A DNA stretch of 39,593 nucleotides from Clostridia bacterium (GTDB lineage Bacteria; Bacillota; Clostridia; Oscillospirales; Acutalibacteraceae). The translations under genes and the position numbers were made by a program. The notes beneath the pieces are model-generated. The model was not told where the DNA came from. It was given only the letters and a program-made list of their open reading frames with translations, and made no database searches. The stretch spans positions 1-39,593 of the forward strand of contig JAFYKZ010000011.1 in assembly GCA_017537365.1 (NCBI GenBank), read 5' to 3'. Positions 2,361 to 38,470 of the stretch are shown in pieces; within the stretch, counting starts at the first letter, position 1, and each line of letters starts with the position of its first letter.

Positions 2361-2363
2361 TAA

Positions 2364-3167
2364 ATGAGATTATCAGATGTGTTATCGAAACCGATAACAA
2401 CAGATTATGTACAAGTAGAAGGCTTTTTAAGCAGTAGAAAGCTTAAAACCGGAAACTCTAAAAAAATTTCAGTCGGTAAAGTTGCATTAAACTTTTATTG
2501 CAACAATTGCAGTGATCAGCGAACATTTTATTCGGGTGAAGATTTATTTTGTATTGGAGTTAATGAAAAAATAGTCAGCATTGATTGTGTTCTTGAATGT
2601 CCTCGTTGCGGGGCTTCGGTACAAATGTGGTTTTTACTGGAATGTAGAGACGAAGATAATATACATAGTCAATATCCGTATGTTCGTATTTTAAAAAGAA
2701 GTGAAAAATTTTCCGAATCAGTTTCACTGATCACTGAAACATATGGCGATTTTACAGACGCTTTAGAAAAAGCTAAAAAGGCGGCTAGAGAAGGGCTTGG
2801 AGCAGGATCTATCGTTTATTTGAGAAAAGTTTTCGAAAGAATTATTACTCAAACTGCAGAGGCTGCTGTTCCTCCAATTGAAACAAGGAAAGCAAATGGT
2901 AATCTTAAACCATTCATTCAAATTCTTATACCAGTAAAAGATCAATGTAATATCATCCCTACGGAATTTGCTGAAGACGGCTACAAACTTTTTGGTGAAC
3001 TTAGTGATGTAGTTCACGGAGACTATGATGAAGACGAGGCTTTACAAAAATTCGATGCCTTTTATCGATTAGTTACCGGTGTGCTGGAAAAAATAAAAAC
3101 TAACCGAGAATTGATGGATGCGATAGGCACATTAGGCTGGCATACTGGAGGTGAAGAAAATGAGTAA
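2364..3167 (+). CDS. zinc-ribbon and DUF4145-type protein inside the RM operon
   Basis: A 267-residue protein lying between hsdM and hsdS. Four cysteines in two CxxC pairs (residues 46/49 and 79/82) suggest a zinc ribbon in the N-terminal half. The C-terminal half (about 135-250) reads like DUF4145: an AAREGLGAGSIVYLRKVFE stretch, then LSDVVHGDYDEDEAL, then a helical end. DUF4145 domains are often seen in or next to restriction and other defence genes, but their biochemical role is not settled. The start has a strong GAGGAGG 8 bases upstream. The 3' end overlaps the ribosome site and first codons of hsdS. Its function here is unknown; a structural or regulatory accessory of the type I enzyme is a guess. 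Confidence 0.8.
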   Translation: MRLSDVLSKPITTDYVQVEGFLSSRKLKTGNSKKISVGKVALNFYCNNCSDQRTFYSGEDLFCIGVNEKIVSIDCVLECPRCGASVQMWFLLECRDEDNIHSQYPYVRILKRSEKFSESVSLITETYGDFTDALEKAKKAAREGLGAGSIVYLRKVFERIITQTAEAAVPPIETRKANGNLKPFIQILIPVKDQCNIIPTEFAEDGYKLFGELSDVVHGDYDEDEALQKFDAFYRLVTGVLEKIKTNRELMDAIGTLGWHTGGEENE

Positions 3168-4413
3168 ATTAGAGCAACTTTTAAATAGCCTTTGTCCAGA
3201 CGGTGTAGAATATGATTTTTTATACACAGTGATGGATTATGAGCAGCCTAACAAGTATATTGTAAAAGATACCAAATATGATAACGATTTTAAAACACCT
3301 GTATTGACGGCGGGGCAATCTTTCATTTTGGGTTATACTAATGAGACTACGGGTATATTCGAGGCATCAAAAGAAAATCCAGTTATTATTTTTGATGATT
3401 TTACTACTTCTTTTCATTGGGTCGATTTTAATTTCAAAGTTAAATCTTCTGCGATGAAGATGTTAAGGTTAAAAAAGGACAGATCTCACGATGCGTATTT
3501 CAGATATTTATATCATGTAATGAAAAATATTCATTATACTCCAGCAGACCATACTCGTCAGTGGATTGAGAAATATTCAAAATTCAAAATTCCTCTTCCA
3601 CCTCTACCGGTACAAGCGGAGATTGTCCGTATATTAGATAAATTCACAGAACTAAATGCGGAACTAACTGCGGAACTAACCGCGGAACTAACTGCGAGAA
3701 AACAGCAGTATGAGTATTATAGAGATAGTGTTTTGAATTCGATTAAACATAGCAAATTTCATCCGATAAAAGAGGGTTGTGATACAATAACTAATTTTGC
3801 TGCAGCAGGTTCTTTTGCAGAAGTTGCTAAAAATGTCCCTTATTTATCAAAACCAGATTACGCACAACTAATTAGAACGGTTGACATAAAGTGTAATTAT
3901 ACACATGAATCTCCTATCTATATATCAAAGCATTCTTATAATTATTTATGGAGAGTTCAATTAAATGAACCTTGTATTGTTTTGCCGAGTGTAGGAAATT
4001 GCGGAGAAGTATATTATATTGATCCTAAAAAGCTACCCTATAAATTTAATGCTCTTGCTAAAAATGCTTTGTTAATTCGTAGCAGCAAGGTCAATTTGTT
4101 ATATTTGAAATATATATTCGAGTCTTCTGATTTTCAAAAAAAATTAAAGAAGGTTACTTCAAATATGGGGCAAAGTAAATTTAACAAAACTGATTTTGAG
4201 AAATTAACAATTCCCATTCCATATCCAGAAGATAATGATAAATCTCTTGCGGAGCAGCAGCGCATTGTTGATATTCTTGACCGTTTCAATAAGCTTTACA
4301 ACAAAATCAGTGAGGGATTGCCTGCCGAAATTGAAGCAAGACAAAAACAATATGAATATTACCGAGATAAGCTCTTAACTTTTAAGAAAAAGGAGGCGGC
4401 GGAAAATGAATAG
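3160..4413 (+). CDS. hsdS: type I RM specificity subunit HsdS
   Basis: A 417-residue specificity subunit with the usual duplicated plan. Target-recognition domain 1 covers about residues 10-140 and is followed by a conserved helix (PLPPLPVQAEIVRILDKF). Target-recognition domain 2 covers about 200-350 and is followed by a matching helix (LAEQQRIVDILDRF). Both halves end in the same ARKQQYEYYRD / ARQKQYEYYRD element, the internal repeat of S subunits. The spacer between the halves carries tandem TAEL units (residues 166-178), known from EcoR124-type enzymes to set the distance between the two half-sites. ATG at 3160 is preferred over GTG at 3151 because GGAGG (3147-3151) sits 8 bases before it. 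It overlaps hsdR by 8 bp. Confidence 0.95.
   Translation: MSKLEQLLNSLCPDGVEYDFLYTVMDYEQPNKYIVKDTKYDNDFKTPVLTAGQSFILGYTNETTGIFEASKENPVIIFDDFTTSFHWVDFNFKVKSSAMKMLRLKKDRSHDAYFRYLYHVMKNIHYTPADHTRQWIEKYSKFKIPLPPLPVQAEIVRILDKFTELNAELTAELTAELTARKQQYEYYRDSVLNSIKHSKFHPIKEGCDTITNFAAAGSFAEVAKNVPYLSKPDYAQLIRTVDIKCNYTHESPIYISKHSYNYLWRVQLNEPCIVLPSVGNCGEVYYIDPKKLPYKFNALAKNALLIRSSKVNLLYLKYIFESSDFQKKLKKVTSNMGQSKFNKTDFEKLTIPIPYPEDNDKSLAEQQRIVDILDRFNKLYNKISEGLPAEIEARQKQYEYYRDKLLTFKKKEAAENE
3658..3693 (+). repeat. 12-bp tandem repeats in the HsdS spacer
   Basis: Three in-frame copies of GCGGAACTAACT (the middle copy ends in C) occupy 3658-3669, 3670-3681 and 3682-3693. A degenerate unit lies just upstream (AGAACTAAAT) and a partial GCGA follows. 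Each unit encodes A-E-L-T. Copy-number change by slippage would keep the frame and lengthen or shorten the central helix by four residues per unit. Confidence 0.93.
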
Positions 4414-7400
4414 CTTTGAAATTGTGGCAAGTTCTACGGAAAGTACGGTTGTGGCTGAGTACACTCCCGAAAAAAGAAAAAGCACCGACTATCAAAGCGA
4501 AACTGAGCTTGAACAGGATTTTATAAATCGTCTTGTGAGTCAGGGTTATGAATACATTACAATAAAAAGCGAACAGGATTTGATTGATAATCTCCGTACC
4601 CAGCTTGAAAGACTAAATAATTACACCTTTTTTGATAAAGAGTGGAACGACTTTTACAGCAGTGTTGTTTCAAACGGAAATGATGGAATTGTCGAAAAAA
4701 CTCGCAAAATACAGGAAGATTATCTGCAAAACCTTACACTTGATAACGGTTATGTTAAAAACATTAAGCTGATAGACAAAACCAACATCCACAACAACCA
4801 TTTGCAGGTGATAAATCAGTATGAAGAAGACGGTGGAAAACATGATACCCGTTACGATGTGACTATTTTGGTAAACGGATTGCCTTTAGTGCATGTTGAG
4901 CTTAAAAAGCGTGGTAATGCAATTCGTGAAGCTTTCAACCAAATCAATCGCTATCAGCGTGACAGCTTTTGGGCAGGCAGCGGATTGTATCAGTATGTAC
5001 AGCTGTTTGTAATTTCCAACGGTACGCATACAAAGTATTATTCTAATACGACAAGATTTCAGCATATCAAAGACAATGCAGAGAAAAACACCGCAAAAAA
5101 GAAAAAAACTTCTAACAGCTTTGAATTTACAAGCTATTGGGCAGATGGAAAAAATCGTATAATTGCCGATCTTGTGGACTTTACAAAAACATTTTTTGCA
5201 AAGCATACGCTATTAAATATCTTAACCCGTTACTGTGTATTTACATCAGAGGAGTTATTACTGGTAATGCGTCCATATCAAATTGCCGCAACTGAAAAAA
5301 TCCTAAACCGTATTACTGTTTCTACCAATCTAAAAAAGACCGGCAAAAAAGAGGCGGGCGGTTACATTTGGCATACCACAGGTAGCGGTAAAACTTTAAC
5401 TAGCTTTAAAACAGCACAACTTGCTCAAGGATTGAATTTCATCGACAAAGTATTATTTGTAGTGGACAGAAAAGATCTTGACTATCAAACGATGAAAGAA
5501 TATGACAGATTTGAAAAAGGTGCTGCTAACAGTAACACCTCTACAAAGATTCTGCAAAAACAAATGGAAGATGATAATGCAAAAACCATTATCACAACAA
5601 TTCAGAAATTGGATAAATTTATATCCAAAAATAAAGAGCACGAAGTTTATAAAAAGCATGTTGTTATGATTTTTGATGAGTGCCACCGTTCGCAATTTGG
5701 GGATATGCATAAATCCATTACGAAACACTTCAAAAATTATCATATTTTCGGTTTTACTGGGACACCCATTTTTGCTTCGAACTCTAACAGTTCAAATGAT
5801 CCGACCATGCGTACTACGGCACAAGTGTTTGGCGGAGAACCGGATGAACATGGAAACAAAGTAAAGCCTCTGCATGCTTATACTATTGTAGACGCAATTC
5901 ACGATGGTAATGTATTGCCTTTTAGGATTGATTATATCAACACTATAAAAAACCCTGAGTTACTGTATGATAAACAAGTAAAAGCGATTGACCGTGAAAA
6001 AGCTTTGCTTGATTCTAAAAGAGTCTCTGAGATTGTGCAATATATTCTTGAGCATTTCGATCAAAAAACTTATCGTAATCAAAATCGTTCTTATTATGAT
6101 CATAGAGTGATTACGAATGTTGAAAAAATGGCAAAATCCAAGAATAATACTGTGGAAGAGCAAAAAACAACCGCAAAAGTGAATGGCTTTAATTCTATTT
6201 TTGCAGTTGCTTCTATCCCTGCGGCGATCGCCTATTATAATGAATTTAAAAAGATAATGGCGGAATCAGCTTACAAATTAAATATTGCTACGATATTCAG
6301 CTTCAGTCCAAACGAGGAAGATCCGGATGATATATTACAGGATGAAAATTTCGACACAAGCGGTCTTGACCAAACTTCACGGGATTTCCTTGACAGTGCT
6401 ATTGATGATTATAATAAGATGTTTAATGTTAGTTATGATACATCTGCTGATAAATTTCCCAACTATTATAAAGATGTTTCATTACGAATGAAAAATCGTG
6501 AGATTGATTTGCTCATCGTGGTTAATATGTTCTTGACAGGATTTGATGCAACCACTCTAAATACACTATGGGTAGATAAAAATTTAAAAGATCACGGTTT
6601 GATACAAGCATTCTCGAGGACTAATCGTATTTTAAATTCTGTAAAAACATTTGGAAATATTGTTTGTTTTAGAAATCTCGAAACCGCTACGAATAATGCG
6701 TTAGCTCTTTTTGGGGATAAAAATGCACGTGGTATGGTCATTTTAAAAACCTACAATGAATATATCAATGGCTACGACGATGAAAACGGAAAACATGTTG
6801 ATGGCTATAACGAGCTTGTTGCCAGACTTGTAAATGAATTTCCGATAAGTAGTGAAATTATTGGTGAGGATAATGAAAAGGAGTTTATTAAACTATTTGG
6901 CCGTATTTTGAAATTAAGAAACATTTTAAGATGTTTTGACGATTTTGAAAATGACAATTCTGTATCTATCAGAGATTTACAAGATTACCAAAGCGTTTAT
7001 ATTGATCTTTATCAAGACTACTCTAAGAAAAGCGACATTGAAAAAGAGCGAATCAATGATGATATTGTCTTTGAAATTGAACTTATTAAGCAAGTTGAGG
7101 TCAATATAGATTACATCTTAATGCTTGTAGCCAAATATCACGAATCTAATTGTGAGGATAAAACCATTCTTGCCAATATTAACAAATCCATCGATGCAAG
7201 TGTTGAGTTGCGAAGCAAAAAAGCTCTTATTGAGGGATTTGTCGCCCAAATGACAGTAAAGACAGATGTTGACAAGGACTGGAAAGAGTTCGTAAAGAGC
7301 CAAAAAGAACAGGACTTAAAAACAATTATAAGTGATGAAAACTTAAAACAAGATGAGGCTAAAAAGTATATCGAGAACTCATTCAGAGACGGTGAGATCA

Positions 7401-7537
7401 AAACCACCGGAACAGATCTTGACAAAATACTGCCTCCAATTTCAAGATTTTCAGGTGGTTCAAACAGAGCGTTAAAAAAACAGATTGTTATAGATAAGTT
7501 AAAAGATTTTTTTGAAAAATATTTCGGCTTGATATAA
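4406..7537 (+). CDS. hsdR: type I restriction enzyme motor and nuclease subunit HsdR
   Basis: A 1043-residue ATP-dependent translocase and endonuclease that cuts unmethylated DNA as part of HsdR2M2S. The N-terminal PD-(D/E)xK nuclease is visible as a run ending in VHVELKKRGN near residue 163, followed by QINRYQR. The SF2 helicase motor has Walker A TTGSGKT near 325, the DECH box near 424 and motif III FTGTP near 450. Further motor motifs follow (LIVVNMFLTGFDA near 708, then a motif VI-like QAFSRTNR). The last 300 residues are the helical part that docks to HsdM/S. Length is typical and no frameshift is visible. It overlaps hsdS by 8 bp and is the last gene of the operon. Confidence 0.97.
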   Translation: MNSFEIVASSTESTVVAEYTPEKRKSTDYQSETELEQDFINRLVSQGYEYITIKSEQDLIDNLRTQLERLNNYTFFDKEWNDFYSSVVSNGNDGIVEKTRKIQEDYLQNLTLDNGYVKNIKLIDKTNIHNNHLQVINQYEEDGGKHDTRYDVTILVNGLPLVHVELKKRGNAIREAFNQINRYQRDSFWAGSGLYQYVQLFVISNGTHTKYYSNTTRFQHIKDNAEKNTAKKKKTSNSFEFTSYWADGKNRIIADLVDFTKTFFAKHTLLNILTRYCVFTSEELLLVMRPYQIAATEKILNRITVSTNLKKTGKKEAGGYIWHTTGSGKTLTSFKTAQLAQGLNFIDKVLFVVDRKDLDYQTMKEYDRFEKGAANSNTSTKILQKQMEDDNAKTIITTIQKLDKFISKNKEHEVYKKHVVMIFDECHRSQFGDMHKSITKHFKNYHIFGFTGTPIFASNSNSSNDPTMRTTAQVFGGEPDEHGNKVKPLHAYTIVDAIHDGNVLPFRIDYINTIKNPELLYDKQVKAIDREKALLDSKRVSEIVQYILEHFDQKTYRNQNRSYYDHRVITNVEKMAKSKNNTVEEQKTTAKVNGFNSIFAVASIPAAIAYYNEFKKIMAESAYKLNIATIFSFSPNEEDPDDILQDENFDTSGLDQTSRDFLDSAIDDYNKMFNVSYDTSADKFPNYYKDVSLRMKNREIDLLIVVNMFLTGFDATTLNTLWVDKNLKDHGLIQAFSRTNRILNSVKTFGNIVCFRNLETATNNALALFGDKNARGMVILKTYNEYINGYDDENGKHVDGYNELVARLVNEFPISSEIIGEDNEKEFIKLFGRILKLRNILRCFDDFENDNSVSIRDLQDYQSVYIDLYQDYSKKSDIEKERINDDIVFEIELIKQVEVNIDYILMLVAKYHESNCEDKTILANINKSIDASVELRSKKALIEGFVAQMTVKTDVDKDWKEFVKSQKEQDLKTIISDENLKQDEAKKYIENSFRDGEIKTTGTDLDKILPPISRFSGGSNRALKKQIVIDKLKDFFEKYFGLI

Positions 7538-9040: not shown

Positions 9041-9418
9041 TTAGATATAAATTAAATATGTGTTTACGATTTCTGTGACTATGTTTCGAATGTTATTCAT
9101 CCGAACAACCCATTCTATTTGATTCCCAGCTTTGAGTTGTTCGGTCACGCCCTCACGCTCTGCCATTTGTTTGACGAGCCGAAAAAACATATCCTCAGCC
9201 TGCTTGTCAAGGTCAGCAAGATATCCGTTCAACTTTCCGTTTGTCAGTAGGTTTGTATAGAGGATTTTTCTATGCTGCTTTATGTATCTAAGATGTCGCT
9301 GTCCCCACAAACCGATTGGTTTATTTTCTTGTTCGGGGAACGAAAGATCAGGCAAATAATAATCGCCTTGCAGAGTGTAGCAAATACCCGTTTGTTCATT
9401 GTAAATACGCTTTTCCAT
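9041..9418 (-). CDS. tnpV: TnpV-family transposon-associated protein (left copy)
   Basis: A 125-residue protein with the TnpV layout: LQGDYYLPDLSFPEQ near residue 17, GLWGQRHLRYIKQHRKILYT near 36-55, EGVTEQLKAGNQIEWV and MNNIRN near the C terminus. TnpV is named from genes carried on clostridial Tn4451-type elements; its biochemical role is not established and it is not the recombinase. No transposase or serine recombinase lies near, so this is a relic or a stand-alone accessory gene. AAGGAGG supports the ATG at 9418. It is the last gene of a three-gene minus-strand unit. The copy at 38093-38470 has the same length and clearly related sequence. Confidence 0.88.
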   Translation of the reverse strand: MEKRIYNEQTGICYTLQGDYYLPDLSFPEQENKPIGLWGQRHLRYIKQHRKILYTNLLTNGKLNGYLADLDKQAEDMFFRLVKQMAEREGVTEQLKAGNQIEWVVRMNNIRNIVTEIVNTYLIYI

Positions 9419-9608: not shown

Positions 9609-9908
9609 TCACTCCTTCAGTAAATCCTTAAACGGCGCTTCGGTTGATACAAAAGTATCGTATGCAAAGTTAGCTCCCAATCGAAATCCCATAATAAAAC
9701 TGTCGAGATTCGATTCTCCGTTGACGATACTCCAAGCATTGACAAAATCAAGAAATTTCTTTTTGTTTTCACCCGTGAGTGCTTCAGTTAGAAATTCCTC
9801 GTTGAGCATTAGGACTTCCATCTGCTTTTGAACTGTTTTGTTCTGCTTAGTGCTTCGTGCTTGGGGATCAATGTTACCATAATAGAATTCTTCAATAAAT
9901 TTTGACAT
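9609..9908 (-). CDS. DUF6809-type protein (left copy)
   Basis: A 99-residue conserved protein with FIEEFYYGNIDPQARS at the N terminus and FIMGFRLGANFAYD near the end, a pattern I associate with DUF6809-like proteins of Firmicutes accessory regions. No function is known. A longer frame runs upstream to 10007, but the family match begins at the ATG at 9908, and GAGG lies about 10 bases before it. The right copy at 37788 also begins there. The two copies share most residues and are visibly related at the DNA level, with many silent differences, so this is an old duplication or two separate acquisitions. Confidence 0.85.
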   Translation of the reverse strand: MSKFIEEFYYGNIDPQARSTKQNKTVQKQMEVLMLNEEFLTEALTGENKKKFLDFVNAWSIVNGESNLDSFIMGFRLGANFAYDTFVSTEAPFKDLLKE

Positions 9909-10053
9909 AATCTTGTTTCCTCGTTTCTGTATTTTTATTTTACGAAGAAACCTTGAAATACACAAATGTGTGGATGAAAAATATGTGTGTTTCTGCCGGT
10001 TATTCAATACTTTTTAATCAAGTCCGTTATGAACACCCGCACCAAACACGAAT

Positions 10054-16905: not shown

Positions 16906-17880
16906 ATGTGCACAGCGCTTAATTTTATAACAAATGACCATTATTTTGGCAGAAACCTAGACCTTGATTTTTCTTATGGCGAAGAAGTTTGCATTATGCC
17001 GAGAAATTTTCCTTTATATTATAGAAAAATGAAACCGCAAATGAATCATTATGCTATTATCGGTATGGCAGTTATGGTGGGAAACGAGCCGCTTTTTTAT
17101 GACGCCGCAAACGAATACGGTCTTGCTATGGCAGGGCTTGATTTTCCCGAAAACGCTCATTATGAAAAGGAAAAAGAGGGGAAAGATAATGTTTGCCAAT
17201 TTGAGTTCATACCATATATTTTAGGTAACTGCAAGAGTATAAATGAGGCTTTAAAACTGCTCGAAAATATTAATTTAATAGATATGCCTTATAGCGATGA
17301 GTTTCCTGTTTCACCTTTGCATTTTATAATTTCTGATAAAAATGATTCTATTGTTATAGAACCGATGAAAAACGGACTAAATATCTATAAAAATCCCGTG
17401 GGGGTTTTAACGAATAATCCGCCGTTTGATTATCAATTTTTTAATCTTAATAATTATAGAAATTTGAAAATCACTAATGGTGAAAATACATTTTTGGAAG
17501 ATTTAGAGCTTAATGAATACTGTCAGGGGCTGGGAAGTCTAGGTTTGCCTGGTGATGTTAGTTCAATGTCGCGATTTATAAGAGCGGTATTCAATAAAGA
17601 AAAATCGGTTTGTGAAAAGGGTGAAAAGTCGTCAGTTTCGCAATTTTTTCATATCTTAAACTCGGTTGGGGTCATAAAAGGTGTTTGTAAAAAGCATTCG
17701 GGCAGATTTGGTATAACGGTTTATTCCTCTTGCATAAATACCGATAAAGGTCGTTATTATTACACAACCTATAATAACCAACAAATTTCTTGTGTTGATA
17801 TGCATAAAACCAACCTGGAAAGCAACAAAATAACCCATTATCCGTTAGAACTTGAATTGAATATAAATTATCAGAATTAA
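16906..17880 (+). CDS. choloylglycine hydrolase family (bile salt hydrolase / penicillin V acylase type)
   Basis: A 324-residue Ntn-type amidase related to bile salt hydrolase, which splits glycine or taurine from conjugated bile acids. The nucleophile Cys2 follows the initiator Met directly. R16 and D19 match Arg18 and Asp21 of the Clostridium perfringens enzyme. The later asparagine is in GVLTNNPPFDY and the arginine in LPGDVSSMSRFIRAVF. The residue matching Asn82 is aspartate here (GLDFP, D79). That site is asparagine in classic bile salt hydrolases and tyrosine in penicillin V acylase, so substrate choice is open. There is no signal peptide, so it acts in the cytosol. TAGGTGAT lies before the ATG. 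Confidence 0.9.
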   Translation: MCTALNFITNDHYFGRNLDLDFSYGEEVCIMPRNFPLYYRKMKPQMNHYAIIGMAVMVGNEPLFYDAANEYGLAMAGLDFPENAHYEKEKEGKDNVCQFEFIPYILGNCKSINEALKLLENINLIDMPYSDEFPVSPLHFIISDKNDSIVIEPMKNGLNIYKNPVGVLTNNPPFDYQFFNLNNYRNLKITNGENTFLEDLELNEYCQGLGSLGLPGDVSSMSRFIRAVFNKEKSVCEKGEKSSVSQFFHILNSVGVIKGVCKKHSGRFGITVYSSCINTDKGRYYYTTYNNQQISCVDMHKTNLESNKITHYPLELELNINYQN

Positions 17881-18094: not shown

Positions 18095-18148
18095 AATTGT
18101 TTGTGTTGCTTGTGGGGTATAAATATAAAAGTTGTTATTTCATAACAG

Positions 18149-18184
18149 TAAAACTCTCGCGTAAAAGTGAGGGTTTTATTTTTG
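18149..18184 (+). terminator. terminator before the polysaccharide cluster
   Basis: AAAACTCTC pairs with GAGGGTTTT around GCGTAAAAGT, followed by ATTTTTGG. It insulates the polysaccharide promoter from upstream reading. Confidence 0.75.
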
Positions 18185-18237
18185 GTTAAAATTTATAACA
18201 AATACAAGTTTTCCACAATTTTCGGCATTTTTTCTCG

Positions 18238-18266
18238 TTGACAAAGGGGAATGAAAATAGTATAAT
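18238..18266 (+). promoter_or_regulatory. consensus sigma-A promoter of the polysaccharide cluster
   Basis: TTGACA (18238-18243), exactly 17 bases, TATAAT (18261-18266): both hexamers are perfect. Transcription should start near 18273, leaving a leader of about 140 to 350 bases before the first well-supported gene. Confidence 0.85.
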
Positions 18267-18414: not shown

Positions 18415-18639
18415 ATGGCTATAGTGTTTAATTGTTATATTTTTGAAAATGAAGCTGATAAGTATCTCGTGCATGATACGAATGGTACATATTATTACTT
18501 TGTCTTGTCGTCTGGTACTGCTGCATTTCGCCTTTTATATTTGTTAATCAATATGAAAATGATCGAAGAACGGGATATTATAATCGAAATAATCAAAGTA
18601 TGTTTTAAGGGGTTACATAAATGTACGCAAAATACATAA
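18415..18639 (+). CDS. 74-aa protein, possibly PqqD-like
   Basis: A 74-residue ORF at the head of the cluster. The pattern of an acidic strand pair (FENEADKYLVHDTNGTYYYF), then LSSGTAAFRLLYLLINM and a helical end is faintly like the small PqqD-type peptide-binding fold, but I could not confirm this by eye. There is no good ribosome site before the ATG at 18415, and the start could differ. It overlaps the sugar transferase by 19 bases, which supports coupling if it is real. Confidence 0.45.
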   Translation: MAIVFNCYIFENEADKYLVHDTNGTYYYFVLSSGTAAFRLLYLLINMKMIEERDIIIEIIKVCFKGLHKCTQNT

Positions 18640-19250
18640 AGCGTCCGATGGACTTTTTTCTGTCGTTGTGCGCAATAATCGTGCTATTGCCAATATTTTT
18701 TGTTTTAATAATTTTAGGTGCAATAATGATGAAAGGGAATCCTTTTTTTACTCAATTGCGCCCTGGTAAGGATGAAAAGATTTTCAAACTTATAAAGTTC
18801 CGCACAATGACTTGTGAAACAGATGAAAATGGCGAACCATTACCGGATGAAATTCGTCTGACAAAATACGGCAAATTTTTACGTTCAACATCACTCGACG
18901 AACTTCCAGAACTGTTCAACATTTTAAAGGGAGATATGGCGGTAGTTGGACCGAGGCCACTATCGGTAAAATATTTAGGATTTTATACAGAAACCGAAAG
19001 CCATAGGCATGATGTTAGACCGGGACTTACCGGATTGGCTCAGGCAAAAGGCCGCAATTCGCTTTCTTGGGAAGCAAAATTTGAGTTGGATTTAGAATAC
19101 ATAGAAAATATAAGTTTTATTAATGACGTTAAAATTATTTTTTTAACAGTGGTTTGCGTATTAAAACATTCCGATATAGGGCAAGGGGAACAGGCTCCTA
19201 TAAGCCTCCATATTTTAAGGGCTCAAAAACAGGAAACTGAGGTGTTGTAA
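18621..19250 (+). CDS. PglC/WcaJ-type initiating phosphoglycosyl transferase
   Basis: A 209-residue monotopic sugar-phosphate transferase that would start the repeat unit by moving a sugar phosphate from a UDP-sugar to undecaprenyl phosphate at the inner membrane face. One hydrophobic, probably re-entrant segment lies at 11-35. The family signature continues with FRTMTCETDENG, TSLDELPELFNILKGDM and VGPRPL, with the catalytic Asp-Glu pair in LDEL. Its length equals small PglC-type enzymes without the extra WbaP membrane domain. AAGGGG lies 9 bases before the ATG. It touches the next gene end to start. The sugar is not predictable from the sequence. Confidence 0.94.
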   Translation: MYAKYIKRPMDFFLSLCAIIVLLPIFFVLIILGAIMMKGNPFFTQLRPGKDEKIFKLIKFRTMTCETDENGEPLPDEIRLTKYGKFLRSTSLDELPELFNILKGDMAVVGPRPLSVKYLGFYTETESHRHDVRPGLTGLAQAKGRNSLSWEAKFELDLEYIENISFINDVKIIFLTVVCVLKHSDIGQGEQAPISLHILRAQKQETEVL

Positions 19251-19778
19251 ATGATAATTAAGTATGAGGATATAATTTTAAGAGCAATAGAGTTTGAGGA
19301 CCTTGGATTAATACGAGAAATGATTAATGATCCCGAAATTGAGCATATGACGGGTGGCGGTGGATTGCCAGTATCAAAATATCAACAAGAAATTTGGTTC
19401 AAATCTCTTGAGGGTAGAAATAACGAAGTAAGACTAATGATAGAGACCGAGGATTGCGGTACTATCGGTATGGTAATGCTTACCGATATAGATTATAGAA
19501 ATTCAACCGCGCAATTTCATTCTAAAATTGCTACAAGCAAAAATATTCGTGGCAAAGGATATGGAACAAAAGCTACCGATGCTCTTATTAAATATGCATT
19601 TGATCAATTGAATTTGAATTGTATTTACAGTCATATTATTGAGTATAATATTGCGTCCCAACGTGTCAAAGAAAAATGTGGTTTTAAGAAAGATGGCGTG
19701 CTTCGTAAACGTGTTTATAAGGATGGCAAATATCACGACGTAGTGGTTTGGTCTATATTAAGAGACGAAGAAAATTAA
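19251..19778 (+). CDS. GNAT acetyltransferase (RimJ/PseH-like)
   Basis: A 175-residue GNAT protein of the RimJ/RimL-like group. The acetyl-CoA loop is NIRGKGYGTKATDALIKYA near residues 99-117, followed by NIASQRVKEKCGFKKDG and the family end RVYKDGKYHDVVVWS. In a polysaccharide locus such proteins commonly N-acetylate an amino sugar nucleotide, as PseH does; ribosomal-protein acetylation is the other family role. It begins on the base after the sugar transferase stop, so co-translation is likely. It starts the unusual four-gene cassette discussed in the findings. Confidence 0.88.
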   Translation: MIIKYEDIILRAIEFEDLGLIREMINDPEIEHMTGGGGLPVSKYQQEIWFKSLEGRNNEVRLMIETEDCGTIGMVMLTDIDYRNSTAQFHSKIATSKNIRGKGYGTKATDALIKYAFDQLNLNCIYSHIIEYNIASQRVKEKCGFKKDGVLRKRVYKDGKYHDVVVWSILRDEEN

Positions 19779-19809
19779 TCAAAAAATATGTAGAAGGAAG
19801 AATATACCG

Positions 19810-21357
19810 ATGTGGGATAAACAGTATGAGGATCGCCTTATAGAACGAGAAACTAAAATGCTGTTGGGTGGCGGTGCAAAACGTATAGAAAAGCAACATG
19901 CCGCTTCAAAGCTTACAGCGCGTGAACGTATTGAAATATTATTTGATAAAGGTACGTTTATTGAGGTTAATGGTTTTGTTGAGTCGCGTATAGATGATTT
20001 TAATATGGATGAAAAACGAGTTCCCGGTGATGGTGTTGTAACGGGCTATGGTAAAATTAATGGTAGGCTTGCATTTGCATCATCAGAGGATTTTACTGTT
20101 ATAGGCGGAACCTTGGGTGAATATCATTCGGTTAAAATTTGCGAAATTATGGATATGGCACTTAAAATGCGTGCACCATACATTTCGATAAATGATAGCG
20201 GTGGTGCAAGAATAGAAGAGGGCGTAAGCTCTTTAAGTGGATATAGCGGAATATTTTTACGCAATACATTAGCTTCAGGTGTTATACCGCAAATCTCGGT
20301 TATTTTAGGACCTTGTGCCGGTGGTGCGTGTTATTCGCCTGCTATTTGTGATTTTGTGTTTATGACAAGAAAAACCTCAAAAATGTTCATAACAGGACCT
20401 AATGTGGTTAAATCTGTTATAGGTACAGATATATCTGCTGAAGAACTCGGTGGTGCTGATGTACATTCTTCGGTAAGCGGCGTTTCACACTTTACATATG
20501 ATAATGAGAAGGAATGTCTCATAGGTGTGCGTGACTTACTTGGATATTTGCCCCAAAGTTGCGATAGTAAACCCCAAAAAATAGAAGGTACACCTATTGA
20601 TGAAAGTAAGCTTCTTACTGAAATAATACCTGATAATCAAAAGAAAGCTTATGATGTTAAAAAGGTTATTGATACTTTTGTTGATAAGGATAGCTTTTTT
20701 GAAGTGCAAAAGGATTTTGCTAAAAATATAGTTGTGGGTTTTTCAAGAATTGATGGAGAAACAGTTGGTATTGTGGCTAACCAACCAAATTATATGGGTG
20801 GAGCCATTGATATTAATTCCTCTGATAAAGCTGCAAGATTTGTTAGAACCTGTGATTGTTTTAATATTCCTATTGTAACCCTTGTTGATGTTACAGGCTT
20901 TTTGCCCGGTGTTAATCAAGAACACGCAGGAATAATTCGTCATGGTGCAAAGTTGCTTTTTGCTTATTCAGAGGCAACAGTGCCTAAGATAAGCTTGATT
21001 TTGCGTAAGGCATATGGTGGCGCATATATTGCTATGAATAGTAAAAATATGGGTGCTGATATGGTTTTTGCTTTACCAATAGCTCAAATAGCAGTTATGG
21101 GTGCTGAGGGTGCTGTAGAAATAATATATAGAAAAGATATAGAAAAATCTGATAACCCCGAACAGCAACGCAGTGATTTCATAAAGAAATATGAAGAAAA
21201 GTTTATGAATCCGTATTTAGCGGCAGAGCGAGGATACATAAATACAATAATACATCCCGAAACTGTTCGTGAAAATATAGCACAGTCTTTAAAAATGCTC
21301 AAAAACAAGTCGGTAGATAGAGCTAATAATAAGAAACATGGAAATATACCGTTATGA
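19810..21357 (+). CDS. acyl-CoA carboxyltransferase / decarboxylase alpha-type subunit
   Basis: A 515-residue protein of the PccB/MmdA carboxyltransferase family, which moves a carboxyl group between biotin and an acyl-CoA. The N-terminal crotonase-like domain carries KLTARERIEILFD, NDSGGARIEEGV and GPCAGGACYSPAICDF; the C-terminal one carries RKAYGGAYIAMNSK and VMGAEGAVEII. Length is right for propionyl-CoA/methylmalonyl-CoA class enzymes. A biotin carrier, a biotin carboxylase and a membrane decarboxylase subunit are all missing from the window, and the gene sits inside a polysaccharide operon with its stop overlapping the next start. It either borrows partners encoded elsewhere or does a different job. 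AGAAGGAAG supports the ATG. Confidence 0.93.
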   Translation: MWDKQYEDRLIERETKMLLGGGAKRIEKQHAASKLTARERIEILFDKGTFIEVNGFVESRIDDFNMDEKRVPGDGVVTGYGKINGRLAFASSEDFTVIGGTLGEYHSVKICEIMDMALKMRAPYISINDSGGARIEEGVSSLSGYSGIFLRNTLASGVIPQISVILGPCAGGACYSPAICDFVFMTRKTSKMFITGPNVVKSVIGTDISAEELGGADVHSSVSGVSHFTYDNEKECLIGVRDLLGYLPQSCDSKPQKIEGTPIDESKLLTEIIPDNQKKAYDVKKVIDTFVDKDSFFEVQKDFAKNIVVGFSRIDGETVGIVANQPNYMGGAIDINSSDKAARFVRTCDCFNIPIVTLVDVTGFLPGVNQEHAGIIRHGAKLLFAYSEATVPKISLILRKAYGGAYIAMNSKNMGADMVFALPIAQIAVMGAEGAVEIIYRKDIEKSDNPEQQRSDFIKKYEEKFMNPYLAAERGYINTIIHPETVRENIAQSLKMLKNKSVDRANNKKHGNIPL

Positions 21358-22370
21358 TGCGTGAAATTGGTAGCGAATTTTGGGAAGTTCCTGTTTGTGA
21401 TAGCACTAATGAAATTTTTCCGTATAATACCGAGTGGTATCTTTCGGGCAGAAGTGCATTAATTGCTATTATTAAGGATATAAAAAAAAGAATCTCATTT
21501 AATAGTGTTGCATTACCTTCTTGGTGTTGCGATTCGATGATTCAACCGTTTTTGAATGAATATATATCGGTTAAATTTTATTCGGTTGAGTTTAAAAATG
21601 GACAACCACGATATGATTTTTCAGGTATATACGATTGTGATGCAATGCTCATAATGGACTATTTTGGTTATATAAGAGCGATAGACCACAATTTTAAAGG
21701 ACTTATAATTAACGATATTACGCATAGTGTTTTTTTAAAGAAAATTCATAAATCTGATTATGTATTCGGCAGTTTGAGAAAATGGGCGGGATTTTTTACG
21801 GGCGGTTTTGCCTATAAAAATGATGGTGGAAAGCTCGAATGTTATCAAACCGCAAAAGATGATAGGTATATTAAAATTCGTAAGCTTGCGATGAGTAAAA
21901 AAGCAAAGTATATAAGCGGGAAAACCGATAAAAAAGATTTTTTAGAGGATTTTTCTTTAGCTGAGGATGTTTTGGATGAGTTTTTTTGCGGTAGTGCGGA
22001 TGATTTTGATATTGCCAGGGCTAAACAAATAGATGTTGAATTTATTAAGTCAAGGCGTAGAGAAAATGCATCGGTTATACTTGGACAATTTGCCGACCTT
22101 GCTGTTTTTTCTGAACTTAAAGAGGATGATTGTCCATTATTCGTTCCGCTTGTTATTAAAAATGGAAATCGCGATAGGTTGCGTAAGCATTTGATCGACA
22201 AAAAGATATATTGTCCTGTACATTGGCCCTTTACAAAACTACATGACCTAAACCAAGAACAACTTGAAATATATACGAATGAGATAAGTATTGTTTGTGA
22301 TCAACGGTATGTTGCTGAGGATATGGAAAGAATTTGTGAGGAAATAAAAGTTTTTTTAAATAGAGGTTGA
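21354..22370 (+). CDS. divergent DegT/DnrJ/EryC1/StrS-like PLP protein
   Basis: A 338-residue protein with the outline of a DegT/StrS sugar aminotransferase: NTEWYLSGRSALIAII near 21-37, LPSWCCDSMIQP, then FGSLRKWAGFFTGGFAYK near 138-156, where the lysine before the aromatic residue and the following GG fit the PLP-lysine segment. The end KIYCPVHWPF plus LPV-type tail agrees with the family. It is shorter and more divergent than typical members, so aminotransfer is likely but not certain. Start is ATG 21354 or 21357; both overlap the carboxyltransferase stop. The neighbouring FemAB-like gene starts 3 bases after its end. Confidence 0.72.
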   Translation: MMREIGSEFWEVPVCDSTNEIFPYNTEWYLSGRSALIAIIKDIKKRISFNSVALPSWCCDSMIQPFLNEYISVKFYSVEFKNGQPRYDFSGIYDCDAMLIMDYFGYIRAIDHNFKGLIINDITHSVFLKKIHKSDYVFGSLRKWAGFFTGGFAYKNDGGKLECYQTAKDDRYIKIRKLAMSKKAKYISGKTDKKDFLEDFSLAEDVLDEFFCGSADDFDIARAKQIDVEFIKSRRRENASVILGQFADLAVFSELKEDDCPLFVPLVIKNGNRDRLRKHLIDKKIYCPVHWPFTKLHDLNQEQLEIYTNEISIVCDQRYVAEDMERICEEIKVFLNRG

Positions 22371-22373
22371 GAA

Positions 22374-23414
22374 ATGTTAAAAATTTGCACTTTGGAAAAT
22401 AGAGAAGAATGGGATAATATTGTTTCATCCTTTGCAAATTATGACGTTTATTATTTAAGCGGATATATTGTGGCATTCAAACTTCACGGTGATGGCGAAC
22501 CGTTACTCTTATATTATGAGAGTGAGGGATTAAAAGGTATAAATGTCGTGATGAAGCGTGATATAGCCGATATACCCGAACTCAAGGACGAGTTGCCTAA
22601 AGGTACGCTTTTTGATTTTTCAACTCCATACGGATATGGTGGTTGGTTAATTGAGGGAGAAATGGAAAAAAGCGATTTGCTTTTTAAGGAATATCAAGAA
22701 TGGTGCGCTGAAAATCATATTGTGTGTGAATTTGTACGCTACCATCCGTTGCTTGAAAATTATAATTATGCTAATAGTGCTTATGATATTATAATGCTTG
22801 GAAATACCATCACATTGGATATTTCATCTCCTGAAGTTATTTGGCAAAATATTACGAGCAAAAATAGAAATGTTATCCGTAAGGCTGAAAAAAGCGGTGT
22901 TGAAATTAAAATGGGAAATTCACCTGAAATATACGAAAAGTTTATAGAGATTTATAATAAAACTATGGAACACGATAATGCTGACGGGTATTATTTTTTT
23001 GGTGAGGATTTCTATGAAAGTATTAGAAATGATTTACCACAAAATTCACTTGTTTTTTACGCTGAGAAGGATGGCGAGATAATTGCTGCATCTATTATGA
23101 TTTATGAGGATGGCAAGCTTAATTATCATTTGTCAGGATCACTTTTTGAATACAGAACCTTTGCTCCGAGTAATTTGTTGCTTTATAAAGCGGCTCTTTG
23201 GGGCTCGGATAATGGGTTTACTACATTCCATTTAGGCGGTGGAGTAGGCTCAAAAGAGGATAGTTTGTTTAAATTTAAAAAATCTTTTTATCGCCAAGAT
23301 GATTTAACGCGTTTTGCAATCGGTAAAAAGGTATTTTTGCAAGAGGAATATGACCGTTTGGTTAAAATAAAAGGCAATATTGACAGCAATTTCTTTCCTA
23401 AATACCGTGCCTAA
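22374..23414 (+). CDS. FemAB-like GNAT transferase
   Basis: A 346-residue two-lobed protein of the FemAB / Acetyltransf_6 type. The C-terminal GNAT lobe includes NVIRKAEKSGVEIKMG near 165-180, SLVFYAEKDGEIIAASIMIY near 222-241, the family core YHLSGSLFEYRTFAPSNLLL near 248-267 and FHLGGGVGSKEDSLFKFKKS near 282-301. FemAB proteins add amino acids from aminoacyl-tRNA to peptidoglycan precursors; relatives in polysaccharide loci are thought to attach acyl or aminoacyl groups to sugars. There is no helical tRNA-arm insert of classical FemX that I can see, which speaks for the second role (inference). Confidence 0.8.
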   Translation: MLKICTLENREEWDNIVSSFANYDVYYLSGYIVAFKLHGDGEPLLLYYESEGLKGINVVMKRDIADIPELKDELPKGTLFDFSTPYGYGGWLIEGEMEKSDLLFKEYQEWCAENHIVCEFVRYHPLLENYNYANSAYDIIMLGNTITLDISSPEVIWQNITSKNRNVIRKAEKSGVEIKMGNSPEIYEKFIEIYNKTMEHDNADGYYFFGEDFYESIRNDLPQNSLVFYAEKDGEIIAASIMIYEDGKLNYHLSGSLFEYRTFAPSNLLLYKAALWGSDNGFTTFHLGGGVGSKEDSLFKFKKSFYRQDDLTRFAIGKKVFLQEEYDRLVKIKGNIDSNFFPKYRA

Positions 23415-23441
23415 TGTTTAATATATAGATTGGTGATTATA

Positions 23442-24644
23442 TTGAAGATACTTTTTATTACAATTGGTGGTTTTGGAGATTCTAAAAGTCAGGGCATATA
23501 TGTTGATTTGATGCGAGAATTTGTTAACAACAATCACGATGTTTATGTAGCGTGTGCAAACCAAAATGCCGAGAATACGTCTGTTGATAATGATACACAA
23601 ATGAATATTTTAAGGGTGGCCACCGGAAAGCTTACAAAGACCAATATTATTAGAAAAGGAATTTCTACCCTTATGGTAGAAACTCAGTTTAAAAATGCAA
23701 TAAAAAAGTATTTTAAAGATGTTAAATTTGATTTGGTTATGTATTCTACCCCACCTATAACATTTGCAGATGTTATTGCTTATGTTAAAAAGCGTGACGG
23801 TGCAAAAAGCTATTTATTGCTTAAGGATATTTTTCCGCAAAATGCTGTGGATATTGGTATGATGGCCAAAAGGGGTCTAAAATCTATAATTTATAAGCTT
23901 TTCAAGAAAAAAGAAGAAAAACTTTATAGAATTTCTGATTATATTGGATGTATGTCAGAAGCAAATGTCAACTATATTTTAAAGGAAAACGCTTATATAA
24001 ATCCTGAAATGGTACATATCAATCCAAATAGTATTGGGGTTAATGAGTGCGAACTGAATGATAGTAAAAAGATAGAAATTTATAATAAATATGGTATACC
24101 CGAAAATGCCCGAACCTTTATTTACGGTGGGAATCTTGGCAAACCACAGGACATACCATTTGTTATAGAGTGTTTAAAGGCAAACGTTGATAAGGATGAC
24201 AGATTTTTTATAATTTGCGGTACAGGTACCGAATATCCGAAACTCAAAGCATTTGTTGATGAGTTTAAACCCCAGAATGTTTTACTTTTAAATGGTTTGG
24301 AAAAGGCGGAATATGAGGAATTTGTAAAAGCTTTTGATGTTGGTCTCATTTTCTTGGATCATCGTTTTACGATTCCAAATTTCCCATCTCGCTTACTTTC
24401 TTATATGCAAAGCAAAATGCCGGTGCTGGCTTGCACAGACCCTAATACTGATATTGGTAAGGTTATAACCGAAAATGATTTCGGTTGGTGGTGCGAAAGT
24501 AATAGTACGGAAGCGTTCACTAAAACTATTGATGAGGCTGTAAATGCTGATTTAAAGGTTTTGGGTGAAAATGGATTTGATTTTTTAAAGCAAAATTACA
24601 CAAGTGAAAAAAGCTATAATATTATTATTGAGAGGATTAAATAA
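23442..24644 (+). CDS. family 4-type glycosyltransferase
   Basis: A 400-residue GT-B fold glycosyltransferase. The N-terminal domain begins MKILFITIGGFGDSKSQG; the C-terminal GT4 domain shows FIYGGNLGKPQDIPF near 226, FFIICGTGTEYPKL and LSYMQSKMPVLACTDP near 318-334. The typical EX7E motif is not strict (end of domain reads differently). TTG at 23442 is preferred since it places the usual MKILF start, with GGTGAT just upstream. It is one of five transferases expected to build the repeat unit. The following acyltransferase starts on its stop codon. Confidence 0.88.
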   Translation: MKILFITIGGFGDSKSQGIYVDLMREFVNNNHDVYVACANQNAENTSVDNDTQMNILRVATGKLTKTNIIRKGISTLMVETQFKNAIKKYFKDVKFDLVMYSTPPITFADVIAYVKKRDGAKSYLLLKDIFPQNAVDIGMMAKRGLKSIIYKLFKKKEEKLYRISDYIGCMSEANVNYILKENAYINPEMVHINPNSIGVNECELNDSKKIEIYNKYGIPENARTFIYGGNLGKPQDIPFVIECLKANVDKDDRFFIICGTGTEYPKLKAFVDEFKPQNVLLLNGLEKAEYEEFVKAFDVGLIFLDHRFTIPNFPSRLLSYMQSKMPVLACTDPNTDIGKVITENDFGWWCESNSTEAFTKTIDEAVNADLKVLGENGFDFLKQNYTSEKSYNIIIERIK

Positions 24645-29661: not shown

Positions 29662-30819
29662 ATGGATAAATTTAAAAATTTAGTTACATACGCCTGGTTG
29701 GTATTTGCGGTATATGCAACAGGTTCAATATTTTTCGTTTCATTTAATTATAAATTATATATAACTATGCTATTTGCCGTTTCTTTTGTTTTCTTTCTTA
29801 TAAGTAACGAGTTTAGAGTTTCAATGTTACGGCAAGATATCATAAGGGTATTGTTTTTATTTATATGTATTTTGTTTGTATTATTACTAAATGGTGTTAC
29901 TGCATATTCATCATATATAGCAATTTTTTTGCAGATAGTAGCGGCGTATTTTATAAGCAATTCTATAAGTCGAGCTGAGTTCGAGAAAAAATATATAAAT
30001 ATAATTAGTTTTTTTGCGGCAGTATCATTGGTTTGCCATTGTGTTTTTTTAATTAGTCCTTCTATTGCACTTAATTTTCCAATGACTATAGGGGATGGAA
30101 GTACAAATTATTATAACGCTTATATTCACGTTTTTCAAAGTGCTCAAGGCTATTCTTCGTATGTTCCTTTTAAACGAAATGCAGGCATATTCTGGGAACC
30201 GGGTGCATATCAAGCATTTTTGAATTTGGGATTATTTTTCATATTAGCCAAAGAAGAACAATTAACCAAAAAGGAAGTAGTTAAAATAATTCTTCTTATT
30301 ATGGCAATAATTACGACCTATTCAACTACCGGTTATATAATTATGGCTATTTTGCTTTTAAGATACGCCGGTTCTTTATGTAAATTTTTAGCAAAGCATA
30401 GTAATATAGCAATAGTTGTTGGCGTTGTTTTTTTAGTTTTTATGATAATTATCAGTAAATATGGTTTATCTTCTTTTATGTCGCAAAAACTGGAAAATGA
30501 GTTTTCGGATGGTGTTTTTTTAAACAGGCTTTTTCTCGACGATATAAATATTATTTTAGAGAAGCCATTGAATTTTTTAGGAATTTCTTTTGAGCGTTAT
30601 GCAAGAATATCCGGAGGTTCGGGTAACTCTATTATACATACAATGGTTAATTTGGGAATTCCTTTTACATTTACAATGCTTTTGATGTATTTTAAATATA
30701 GTACTCTTAAAAAGAACCCAATTTTATGTTTTGTGATATTAATGATGATATTTTCTACAGAAAGTCTTATGTGGAGACCAATTTTTCTTTGTCTTGCTTG
30801 GTATGGTAGTAAAACTTAA
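29662..30819 (+). CDS. wzy: Wzy-type polysaccharide polymerase
   Basis: A 385-residue membrane protein with about ten to eleven hydrophobic segments and one longer loop (about 140-180) holding NAGIFWEPGAYQAFLNLGLF. WEPG in that loop is typical of O-antigen polymerase/ligase-like proteins. It would join flipped repeat units on the outer membrane face of the inner membrane. Sequence conservation in Wzy is always low, so the call rests on topology, the loop motif and its place near Wzx. AAGGAG lies about 15 bases before the ATG, a long spacing; another nearby start is not evident. Confidence 0.85.
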   Translation: MDKFKNLVTYAWLVFAVYATGSIFFVSFNYKLYITMLFAVSFVFFLISNEFRVSMLRQDIIRVLFLFICILFVLLLNGVTAYSSYIAIFLQIVAAYFISNSISRAEFEKKYINIISFFAAVSLVCHCVFLISPSIALNFPMTIGDGSTNYYNAYIHVFQSAQGYSSYVPFKRNAGIFWEPGAYQAFLNLGLFFILAKEEQLTKKEVVKIILLIMAIITTYSTTGYIIMAILLLRYAGSLCKFLAKHSNIAIVVGVVFLVFMIIISKYGLSSFMSQKLENEFSDGVFLNRLFLDDINIILEKPLNFLGISFERYARISGGSGNSIIHTMVNLGIPFTFTMLLMYFKYSTLKKNPILCFVILMMIFSTESLMWRPIFLCLAWYGSKT

Positions 30820-37787: not shown

Positions 37788-38090
37788 ATGACTAACTTTA
37801 TTGAAGAATTTTATTACGGTAATTTAGACCCACAAGCACGTAGCACCAAGCAAAACAAAACTGTTCAAAAGCAGATGGAAGTATTAATGCTCAACGAGGA
37901 CTTTCTGACCGAGAATCTTTCGGGTGAAAGTAAAAAGAAATTCCTTGAGTTTTGTAACGCTTGGAGTGTGGTTAATGGTGAATCAAACCTTGACAGTTTT
38001 ATAATGGGATTCAGACTTGGTGCTAAATTTACATACGATACTTTTGTAAATGAAACCGCTCCTTTTCAGGATTTGCTGAAGGAGGTTTGA
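37788..38090 (+). CDS. DUF6809-type protein (right copy)
   Basis: A 100-residue protein closely related to the one at 9609-9908: FIEEFYYGNLDPQARS at the head, ESNLDSFIMGFRLGAKFTYD near the end. There is no known function. GGAGTATTAC lies before the ATG. tnpV follows two bases after the stop, without the small gene present in the left copy. Confidence 0.85.
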   Translation: MTNFIEEFYYGNLDPQARSTKQNKTVQKQMEVLMLNEDFLTENLSGESKKKFLEFCNAWSVVNGESNLDSFIMGFRLGAKFTYDTFVNETAPFQDLLKEV

Positions 38091-38092
38091 TT

Positions 38093-38470
38093 ATGGAAAA
38101 GTATATTTTTGATGAAAATAATGGCTTGTGGTATGAGTTGCAGGGTGATTATTACATTCCGTGCTTAAAACTCCCTGATGAAGAACAAGTTGAAATTGGT
38201 ATATGGGGTATGCGACATTTGGAGTATATCAAACACCATCGCAAGGGTTTTTATACATCGTTACTTGTAGGTTGCGAACTTAATCGCTACCTTGCTGATG
38301 TTAATAGACAAGCAGACGAAATGTTTGATACTCTCATCTCGCAATACAAAACCGCTGAAGGCATTACCGAAAAACTCAAAGCAGACAATCAAATGGAGTG
38401 GGTTGCTCGGATGAATAACATCCGCAGCAGAGCCACAGAAATTGTAAATCACGATATAATTTATAACTAA
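38093..38470 (+). CDS. tnpV: TnpV-family transposon-associated protein (right copy)
   Basis: A 125-residue TnpV-type protein, the same length as the left copy. Blocks: LQGDYYIPCLKLPDEE near 17, GMRHLEYIKHHRKGFYTSLL near 40-59, and EGITEKLKADNQMEWVARMN near 96-115. ATG at 38093 has GGAGG (38081-38085) 7 bases upstream; an in-frame TTG two codons earlier is less likely. No recombinase gene is near. The spread of differences from the left copy, including silent ones, argues against a recent duplication. Confidence 0.88.
   Translation: MEKYIFDENNGLWYELQGDYYIPCLKLPDEEQVEIGIWGMRHLEYIKHHRKGFYTSLLVGCELNRYLADVNRQADEMFDTLISQYKTAEGITEKLKADNQMEWVARMNNIRSRATEIVNHDIIYN

Follow-up and report, generated by a model that had tools for sequence, protein, structure and literature searches.

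What does an acyl-CoA carboxyltransferase do in a polysaccharide gene cluster that offers it no biotin partner? The question is raised by contig JAFYKZ010000011.1 of a Clostridia bacterium of the Acutalibacteraceae (assembly GCA_017537365.1), all 39,593 nucleotides of which were analysed and are here called the window; it is one whole contig (contig 10) of a source genome, G000, that comprises 1.72 Mb in 31 contigs and is 98% complete. Behind the gene for an initiating phosphoglycosyl transferase (PHPT), the window carries genes for a GNAT acyltransferase, an MmdA/PccB-type carboxyltransferase (CT), a DegT-like pyridoxal phosphate (PLP) protein and a FemAB-like transferase. We propose, with a probability of roughly 0.5, that the CT forms part of a biotin transcarboxylase that supplies an acyl group to the polysaccharide.

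In the mechanism envisaged, the CT would be the acyl-CoA (12S-like) subunit, and the other two parts, OadA (5S-like) and a free biotin carrier (1.3S-like), would come from contig 27 and its oxaloacetate decarboxylase set. OadA would transfer CO2 from oxaloacetate onto the biotin of the carrier, and the CT would pass it to an acyl-CoA, in the likeliest case acetyl-CoA, to give malonyl-CoA (methylmalonyl-CoA being possible), using neither ATP nor biotin carboxylase. A transferase of the cluster, for which the GNAT, FemAB-like, hexapeptide-type and Acyl_transf_3 proteins are candidates, would then place the acyl group on a sugar of the repeat. That the group attached is malonyl is a more tentative suggestion.

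A carboxyltransferase with its putative partners on another contig

A genome-wide profile search found the window CT to be the sole Carboxyl_trans protein of G000. It is a 12S-type acyl-CoA carboxyltransferase, matching the 12S structure 1on3 at E 1.1e-166; its motifs GPCAGGACYSP, INDSGGARIEEG and KAYGGAYIAM match those of relatives, and its reading frame is intact. The closest NCBIfam model, mmdA (TIGR01117), gave 746.8 bits, under the cut-off of 998.8. The four genes had been named in a preliminary description of the window, and their positions proved exact, with Pfam and NCBIfam matches for three of them and a profile comparison for the PLP protein. They do lie directly behind the initiating transferase, as it said (PHPT and GNAT abut at 19250/19251), and are tightly packed (spacings of 0 bp for PHPT/GNAT, 31 bp for GNAT-CT, −4 bp, an ATGA overlap, for CT/PLP and 3 bp for PLP-FemAB), but of the several overlaps described only that between CT and PLP exists.

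Across the genome, matches to biotin carrier, OAD_beta and PYC_OADA lay on contigs 27 and 21 and none on contig 10. The earlier claim that the CT lacks a biotin partner therefore stands within the window and falls for the genome as a whole, where a search for carrier genes, suggested at the time, found one: the single Biotin_lipoyl match is a free 121-aa carrier with the motif EAMKMEN on contig 27, flanked by OadG-like and OadB genes, beyond which lies OadA. The OadA-like protein (467 aa) scored 755.9 bits against oxaloacetate decarboxylase alpha, above the cut-off of 718, and 583.1 bits against the subunit 5S model, under its cut-off of 827. G000 thus holds both a 5S-type (OadA) protein and a free 1.3S-type biotin carrier, the parts that a transcarboxylase would need beside the CT.

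Biotin carboxylase (PF02785) was found neither in G000 (best score 13.4 bits, cut-off 32.4) nor in a comparison set of 18 same-genus genomes, not all of which are complete, and the same was true of Ketoacyl-synt_C, which marks the FabF-type synthase. As positive controls, 14 known genomes yielded biotin carboxylase in 13 cases and Ketoacyl-synt_C in 10. Judged by these gene contents, the usual route to fatty acids seems closed to the genus. Since both enzymes are absent, the CT does not work as an ATP-driven carboxylase for ordinary fatty-acid synthesis, and two familiar roles were rejected: that of an ATP-dependent acetyl- or propionyl-CoA carboxylase, as biotin carboxylase was not found in G000, and that of a malonyl-CoA source for ordinary fatty-acid synthesis, as Ketoacyl-synt_C was not found. 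The lack of a FabF-type synthase also makes the polysaccharide cluster the simplest place for the product of the CT to be used. OAD_beta was present in 16/18 and PYC_OADA in 15/18 same-genus genomes, and Carboxyl_trans in 0/18; as the genus commonly carries the Oad set and none of the 18 has a CT, the CT is an addition, and not core metabolism of the genus.

Relatives of the carboxyltransferase

Relatives of the CT were sought in a class set of 391 genomes and a family set of 398, G000 being counted in both. A single scan of a collection of genome contigs gave 11 loci, which fell into two kinds: four (L094–L097, 61–66% identity) showed none of carrier, OadB and OadA in the stretch read, which for L096 covers only ~3 kb downstream, and seven more distant ones (L098–L104) had a carrier in 7/7 and OadB in 6/7. 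At E≤1e-100 a CT match was present in 184/391 class genomes. Among the best 29 class loci besides that of G000, with neighbours scored within 1.5 kb, a carrier was present in all 29, OadA in 25 and OadB in three, and one (L140, at a contig end) had neither OadA nor OadB. Twenty loci were extended to ~7–10.5 kb; as they were chosen among the 25 already showing OadA, they inform only on OadB, found in 0/20, and on neighbours, among which there were no homologues of the cassette or of the acyl-module proteins described below.

By gene content, CT, carrier and OadA without OadB have the predicted 12S/1.3S/5S make-up of a transcarboxylase, and the contig-27 OadA is 74–79% identical to the OadAs beside the six nearest carrier-linked CTs (L115–L120). 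Such sets are common in the class (L115–L143, L175–L194), accounting for 25 of the best 29 loci, and may be transcarboxylases misnamed as decarboxylases.

The same neighbourhoods bear on a different assignment, in which the CT acts as alpha subunit of a Na+-pumping methylmalonyl-CoA-type decarboxylase and works with the carrier and OadB of contig 27 or with an orphan beta subunit on contig 21. Such a role would account for the OAD_beta matches on both contigs and for OadB in six of the seven distant loci and in three of the 29 class loci, and the window CT shares with MmdA the CT fold and the nearest subfamily model. It differs, however, in scoring under the curated mmdA cut-off and in having no beta or carrier gene nearby (the layout of a Na+-pump decarboxylase is described in the available part of PMC7145394), and OadA stands beside the carrier in most class relatives. 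The contig-21 gene (C21:52840-53889; L058 8820-9971) has no carrier or carboxyltransferase adjoining, and its relatives, at 80–85% identity, are kept in four congeners that have no CT, with no carrier homologue in the loci read there; as a partner of the CT's own it is weakened by that persistence. We regard a Na+-pump role as distinctly improbable.

In the family set only 4/398 genomes, G000 included, had a CT at E≤1e-100. Two of the other CTs (L172 and L173) stand at 49–51% identity; L172 has no OadA homologue or AMP-binding-like gene adjoining. In L173 (1498-4447, genome G526) the divergent CT (~50% identity) is followed at once by an OadA homologue and preceded by an AMP-binding-like gene.

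The cassette in other genomes

The window PLP protein scored 12.4 bits against Pfam DegT, below the gathering cut-off of 19.8. A profile of its family (10 sequences) nevertheless picks up DegT-type structures, ColD-type ones among them (best E 9.7e-05), and matches four canonical DegT proteins with an hhalign probability of 94.3; D121, S140 and K143 are invariant in the 10 aligned rows and H124 nearly so, the lysine lying in S-x-R-K. On these profile comparisons, the protein is a diverged DegT member. The profile of the FemAB-like family finds FemX (E 2e-19), and aminoacylation is the usual chemistry of the FemX family.

The PLP protein occurs in 16/391 class genomes and 14/398 family genomes, G000 included in each. 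Besides the G000 locus, 29 loci were read, 19 with wider flanks (two shortened by contig ends) and 10 with ~1.5 kb. A FemAB homologue lay near the PLP gene in 12 of them, and eight (L083, L084, L085, L157–L161) joined PHPT, PLP and FemAB. These eight resemble the window in their initiating transferase, DegT-like and FemAB-like genes and, in L083, L157 and L160, in the next gene behind FemAB, 47–64% identical to the WcaI-like glycosyltransferase of the window. They differ in lacking a CT in the flanks read and in what stands between PHPT and PLP: an epimerase in L083 (by eye), ATP-grasp-like genes in L157 and L158 (one of those in L157 checked, the others by eye), a GNAT in L160, and nothing in L084, L085 and L161. 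In L159 the order is PHPT-FemAB-PLP. L160 reads PHPT-GNAT-PLP-FemAB-GT4 (GT4, glycosyltransferase), which is the order of the window minus the CT.

A CT was thus present in 0/29 of the flanks read, and the four-gene order, put forward earlier as a cassette, was found only in G000, the outcome named in advance as its refutation; as a conserved cassette, the four genes are ruled out in the genomes sampled. Because GNAT, PLP and FemAB occur together without a CT in L160, they need not act on a CT product, and the GNAT is not an obvious partner of the CT.

It could be argued from L160 that a PHPT-PLP-FemAB cassette has a variable slot in which the CT travels as incidental cargo. GNAT, PLP and FemAB would then make a sugar with ordinary acetyl or aminoacyl groups, and the CT would serve general metabolism (for example as a methylmalonyl-CoA:pyruvate transcarboxylase) or nothing. 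The ATP-grasp-like and epimerase genes found in that slot elsewhere, the 20 extended class loci and the changes at 15 of 176 conserved CT positions (see below) all fit such a view. Against it, the CT frame is intact and its main motifs are kept, the CT gene overlaps that of the PLP protein by 4 bp, a CT is absent from the 18 congeners searched, and a second member of the family, G774, has a CT in a PHPT-FemAB-PLP stretch. On balance we consider incidental cargo unlikely.

Two of the other loci, L088 (7193-9818, − strand) and L090 (8935-11685, + strand), have PLP, FemAB and GNAT (by eye) in what appear by eye to be legionaminic-type flagellin clusters. Amino-acid-substituted legionaminic acid is known in clostridial flagellin, and these clusters could bear on it.

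Carboxyltransferases in biosynthetic clusters

Two of the carrier-less CTs, in L094 and L096, lie in clusters of ketoacyl-ACP synthase III (KASIII; ACP, acyl carrier protein), CT, one or more short-chain dehydrogenase/reductases (SDRs) and AMP ligase, to which L094 adds a FabD-like acyltransferase-domain protein, a Glyphos_transf protein and more AMP-binding and GNAT genes. A 41-row tree places the window CT with L094, L096 and L095 (support 96/95), and a wider unresolved group (100/99) takes in L097 together with the carrier-linked CTs from a single family; a 44-row tree again joins the same four (96/93). All five carrier-less CTs as a single group are poorly supported, in 26% and 47% of bootstrap trees.

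G774, a genome of the window's own family, offers the closest comparison. On one strand of its contig 22 stand DegT, PHPT, FemAB, PLP and two hexapeptide-like genes (by eye), next a FabD (291.2 bits, ACP S-malonyltransferase cut-off 260.9) with three KASIII and three SDR genes interspersed, further on Wzy_C, a flippase, LicD and others, and then CT, carrier, OadA, SDR, AMP ligase and a phosphopantetheinyl transferase. CT-carrier-OadA lies ~16 kb from PHPT-FemAB-PLP on the same contig and strand, and no OadB homologue was found in either stretch read there (L159, L174). The KASIII proteins are 35–39% identical to that of L094, the three SDRs 38–42% to L094's first SDR, and the SDR and AMP ligase behind OadA 46–47% and 44% to the pair behind the L094 CT. 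As KASIII and FabD use malonyl units, the transcarboxylase-type set of G774 lies with an acyl-making module in a polysaccharide-looking cluster. A crude motif scan for ACP found none in the window, L159, L174, L094 or L096, and does not exclude one.

The CT of G774 falls in the carrier-linked group of the 44-row tree and, like that of the window, scores under the mmdA cut-off (778.1 bits); given that grouping, CTs appear to have entered such clusters at least twice. The co-occurrence of CT and PLP in G774 was spotted post hoc and, with three CTs (E≤1e-100) and 13 PLP proteins among the 397 other family genomes, is weak by itself; its weight rests on the ~16 kb linkage.

G774 also bears on which acyl group would be made. 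The same transcarboxylase could yield methylmalonyl-CoA or, in reverse, propionyl-CoA, and the sugar bear methylmalonyl or propionyl. Methylmalonyl-CoA is the substrate of the classical transcarboxylase, and mmdA is the closest NCBIfam model. A methylmalonyl-CoA enzyme has also been proposed for strain BL-4 in the available part of PMC7764203. Acetyl-CoA is nevertheless the commoner substrate, and the FabD of G774 exceeds the ACP S-malonyltransferase cut-off in the very stretch that holds the CT; the chance of a methylmalonyl or propionyl sugar seems slight.

Taken together, a carboxyl-bearing acyl group for a sugar, as suggested in the preliminary description, is still the best reading, given that no ordinary fatty-acid synthesis was seen and that G774 joins CT-carrier-OadA and FabD/KASIII/SDR to a PHPT-FemAB-PLP stretch; with L160 in view, all four genes need not act as one set. 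At slightly less than even odds we would go further: a bacterium with neither the usual fatty-acid synthase nor acetyl-CoA carboxylase would make malonyl-CoA solely to decorate its surface glycan, by plugging a cluster CT into the OadA and carrier of its oxaloacetate decarboxylase, and in the clusters of G774, L094 and L096 an enzyme of the same type would supply KASIII/SDR modules for acyl synthesis.

Points of doubt

Several observations weigh against a transcarboxylase supplying the polysaccharide. Over 176 near-invariant columns of 37 reference CTs (the divergent L172 and L173 left out), the window CT deviates at 15, more than any reference; these deviate mostly at 0–3, with 11 in L098, 8 in L117 and 4–6 in three others. 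The carrier-less CTs as a group show 7–15 deviations, the window being highest, and changes common to the window, L094 and L096 include Q93E, S101T, A107S, T204I and E426Q. Because of these changes, the chemistry of the window CT, or the constraint on it, may differ from that of the references. OadA and the carrier are not adjacent to the CT in G000; the three-gene linkage without OadB seen in relatives is not found there, the CT being unlinked and the carrier standing beside an OadB that could drain carboxybiotin. In three of the 29 class relatives the stretch shows OadB but no OadA, and GNAT-PLP-FemAB exists without a CT. The apparent users of malonyl-CoA in G774, FabD and KASIII, have no equivalent in the window (KASIII elsewhere in G000 was not searched). 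Finally, no malonyl-bearing bacterial polysaccharide was found among the papers listed in literature searches for one; the available part of PMC3210612 lists malyl, hydroxybutyryl, dihydroxyhexanoyl and hydroxyglutaryl groups with no mention of malonyl.

Comparison with known systems

The Propionibacterium transcarboxylase, a methylmalonyl-CoA carboxytransferase of 12S, 5S and 1.3S subunits, is the nearest model. Homologues of all three parts are present in G000, and no biotin carboxylase is needed in either case; in G000, by contrast, the genes are unlinked, the CT sits in a polysaccharide operon, OadA and carrier accompany OadB and OadG, and the enzyme is predicted from genes. Clostridium thermocellum, which has no standard acetyl-CoA carboxylase, is likewise proposed to draw malonyl-CoA from a transcarboxylase, the putative Clo1313_1523-1526, recruited in a metabolic model (PMC5414155, in part). 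In strain BL-4, CLOSBL4_v1_1895-1897 encode a carboxyltransferase, an OadA-like and a biotin gamma-like protein, proposed as the possible methylmalonyl-CoA transcarboxylase noted above (PMC7764203, in part) and clustered as in 25 of the 29 class loci. In the available portions of both sources these enzymes are not tied to polysaccharide genes, whereas the CT of G000 stands alone among such genes, and no FabF was found in that genome.

No description of a capsule cluster with DegT, FemAB and carboxyltransferase was found in the literature searched. The arrangement is best read as real and unusual, a known enzyme type in a use not found described there. If the proposal is right, the machinery of biotin carboxyl transfer is so modular that one subunit, apparently acquired, can redirect the CO2 carrier of an oxaloacetate decarboxylase to surface-sugar chemistry; carboxyltransferase genes standing without a carrier in biosynthetic clusters would gain a use, and the coat would bear an unusual acidic acyl group detectable by mass spectrometry.

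Layout of the window

The surroundings of the four genes are a polysaccharide cluster (Table 1). Downstream of FemAB, Pfam matches comprise group-1 glycosyltransferases, Acyl_transf_3, a Wzx-like flippase, a pyruvyltransferase and a CapE-like protein; a hexapeptide-type acyltransferase has NCBIfam matches all under cut-offs, and a Wzy-like membrane protein (29662-30819), with no Pfam match, was named by eye.

Table 1. Features of the cluster, in order of position in the window.
Feature	Position	Strand	Evidence
Sigma-70-type site TTGACA-17-TATAAT, perfect consensus	18238..18266	+	355 bp upstream of PHPT gene; consensus match alone
PHPT (Bac_transf), initiating sugar transferase	18621..19250	+	Pfam PF02397, 197.2 bits
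GNAT acyltransferase	19251..19778	+	Acetyltransf_3 77.5 bits; best NCBIfam neighbour PseH 54.8 bits, below cut-off 93.1
MmdA/PccB-type CT	19810..21357	+	Carboxyl_trans 616.7 bits
Diverged DegT/StrS-type PLP protein	21354..22370	+	Profile comparison; no Pfam family at E≤0.001
FemX/FemAB-like transferase	22374..23414	+	FemAB 51.1 bits, cut-off 24
WcaI-like group-1 glycosyltransferase	23430..24644	+	Pfam/NCBIfam

Promoter-like sites are no more numerous in the region than in shuffles. A terminator-like hairpin lies just ahead of the consensus site (18147-18266 together), leaving a long leader toward PHPT, and Rfam gave 0 matches at gathering scores anywhere in the window, this leader included. 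A choloylglycine hydrolase family protein (16906-17880; CBAH 340.9 bits) is encoded immediately before the cluster, and a type I restriction-modification set with a 267-aa gene interposed (by eye) occupies 717-7537. Two near-alike pairs of small-protein genes (by eye) flank the polysaccharide region in opposite orientation, 9041-9418 and 9609-10007 on the − strand and 37788-38090 and 38087-38470 on the + strand, and are possible recombination borders.

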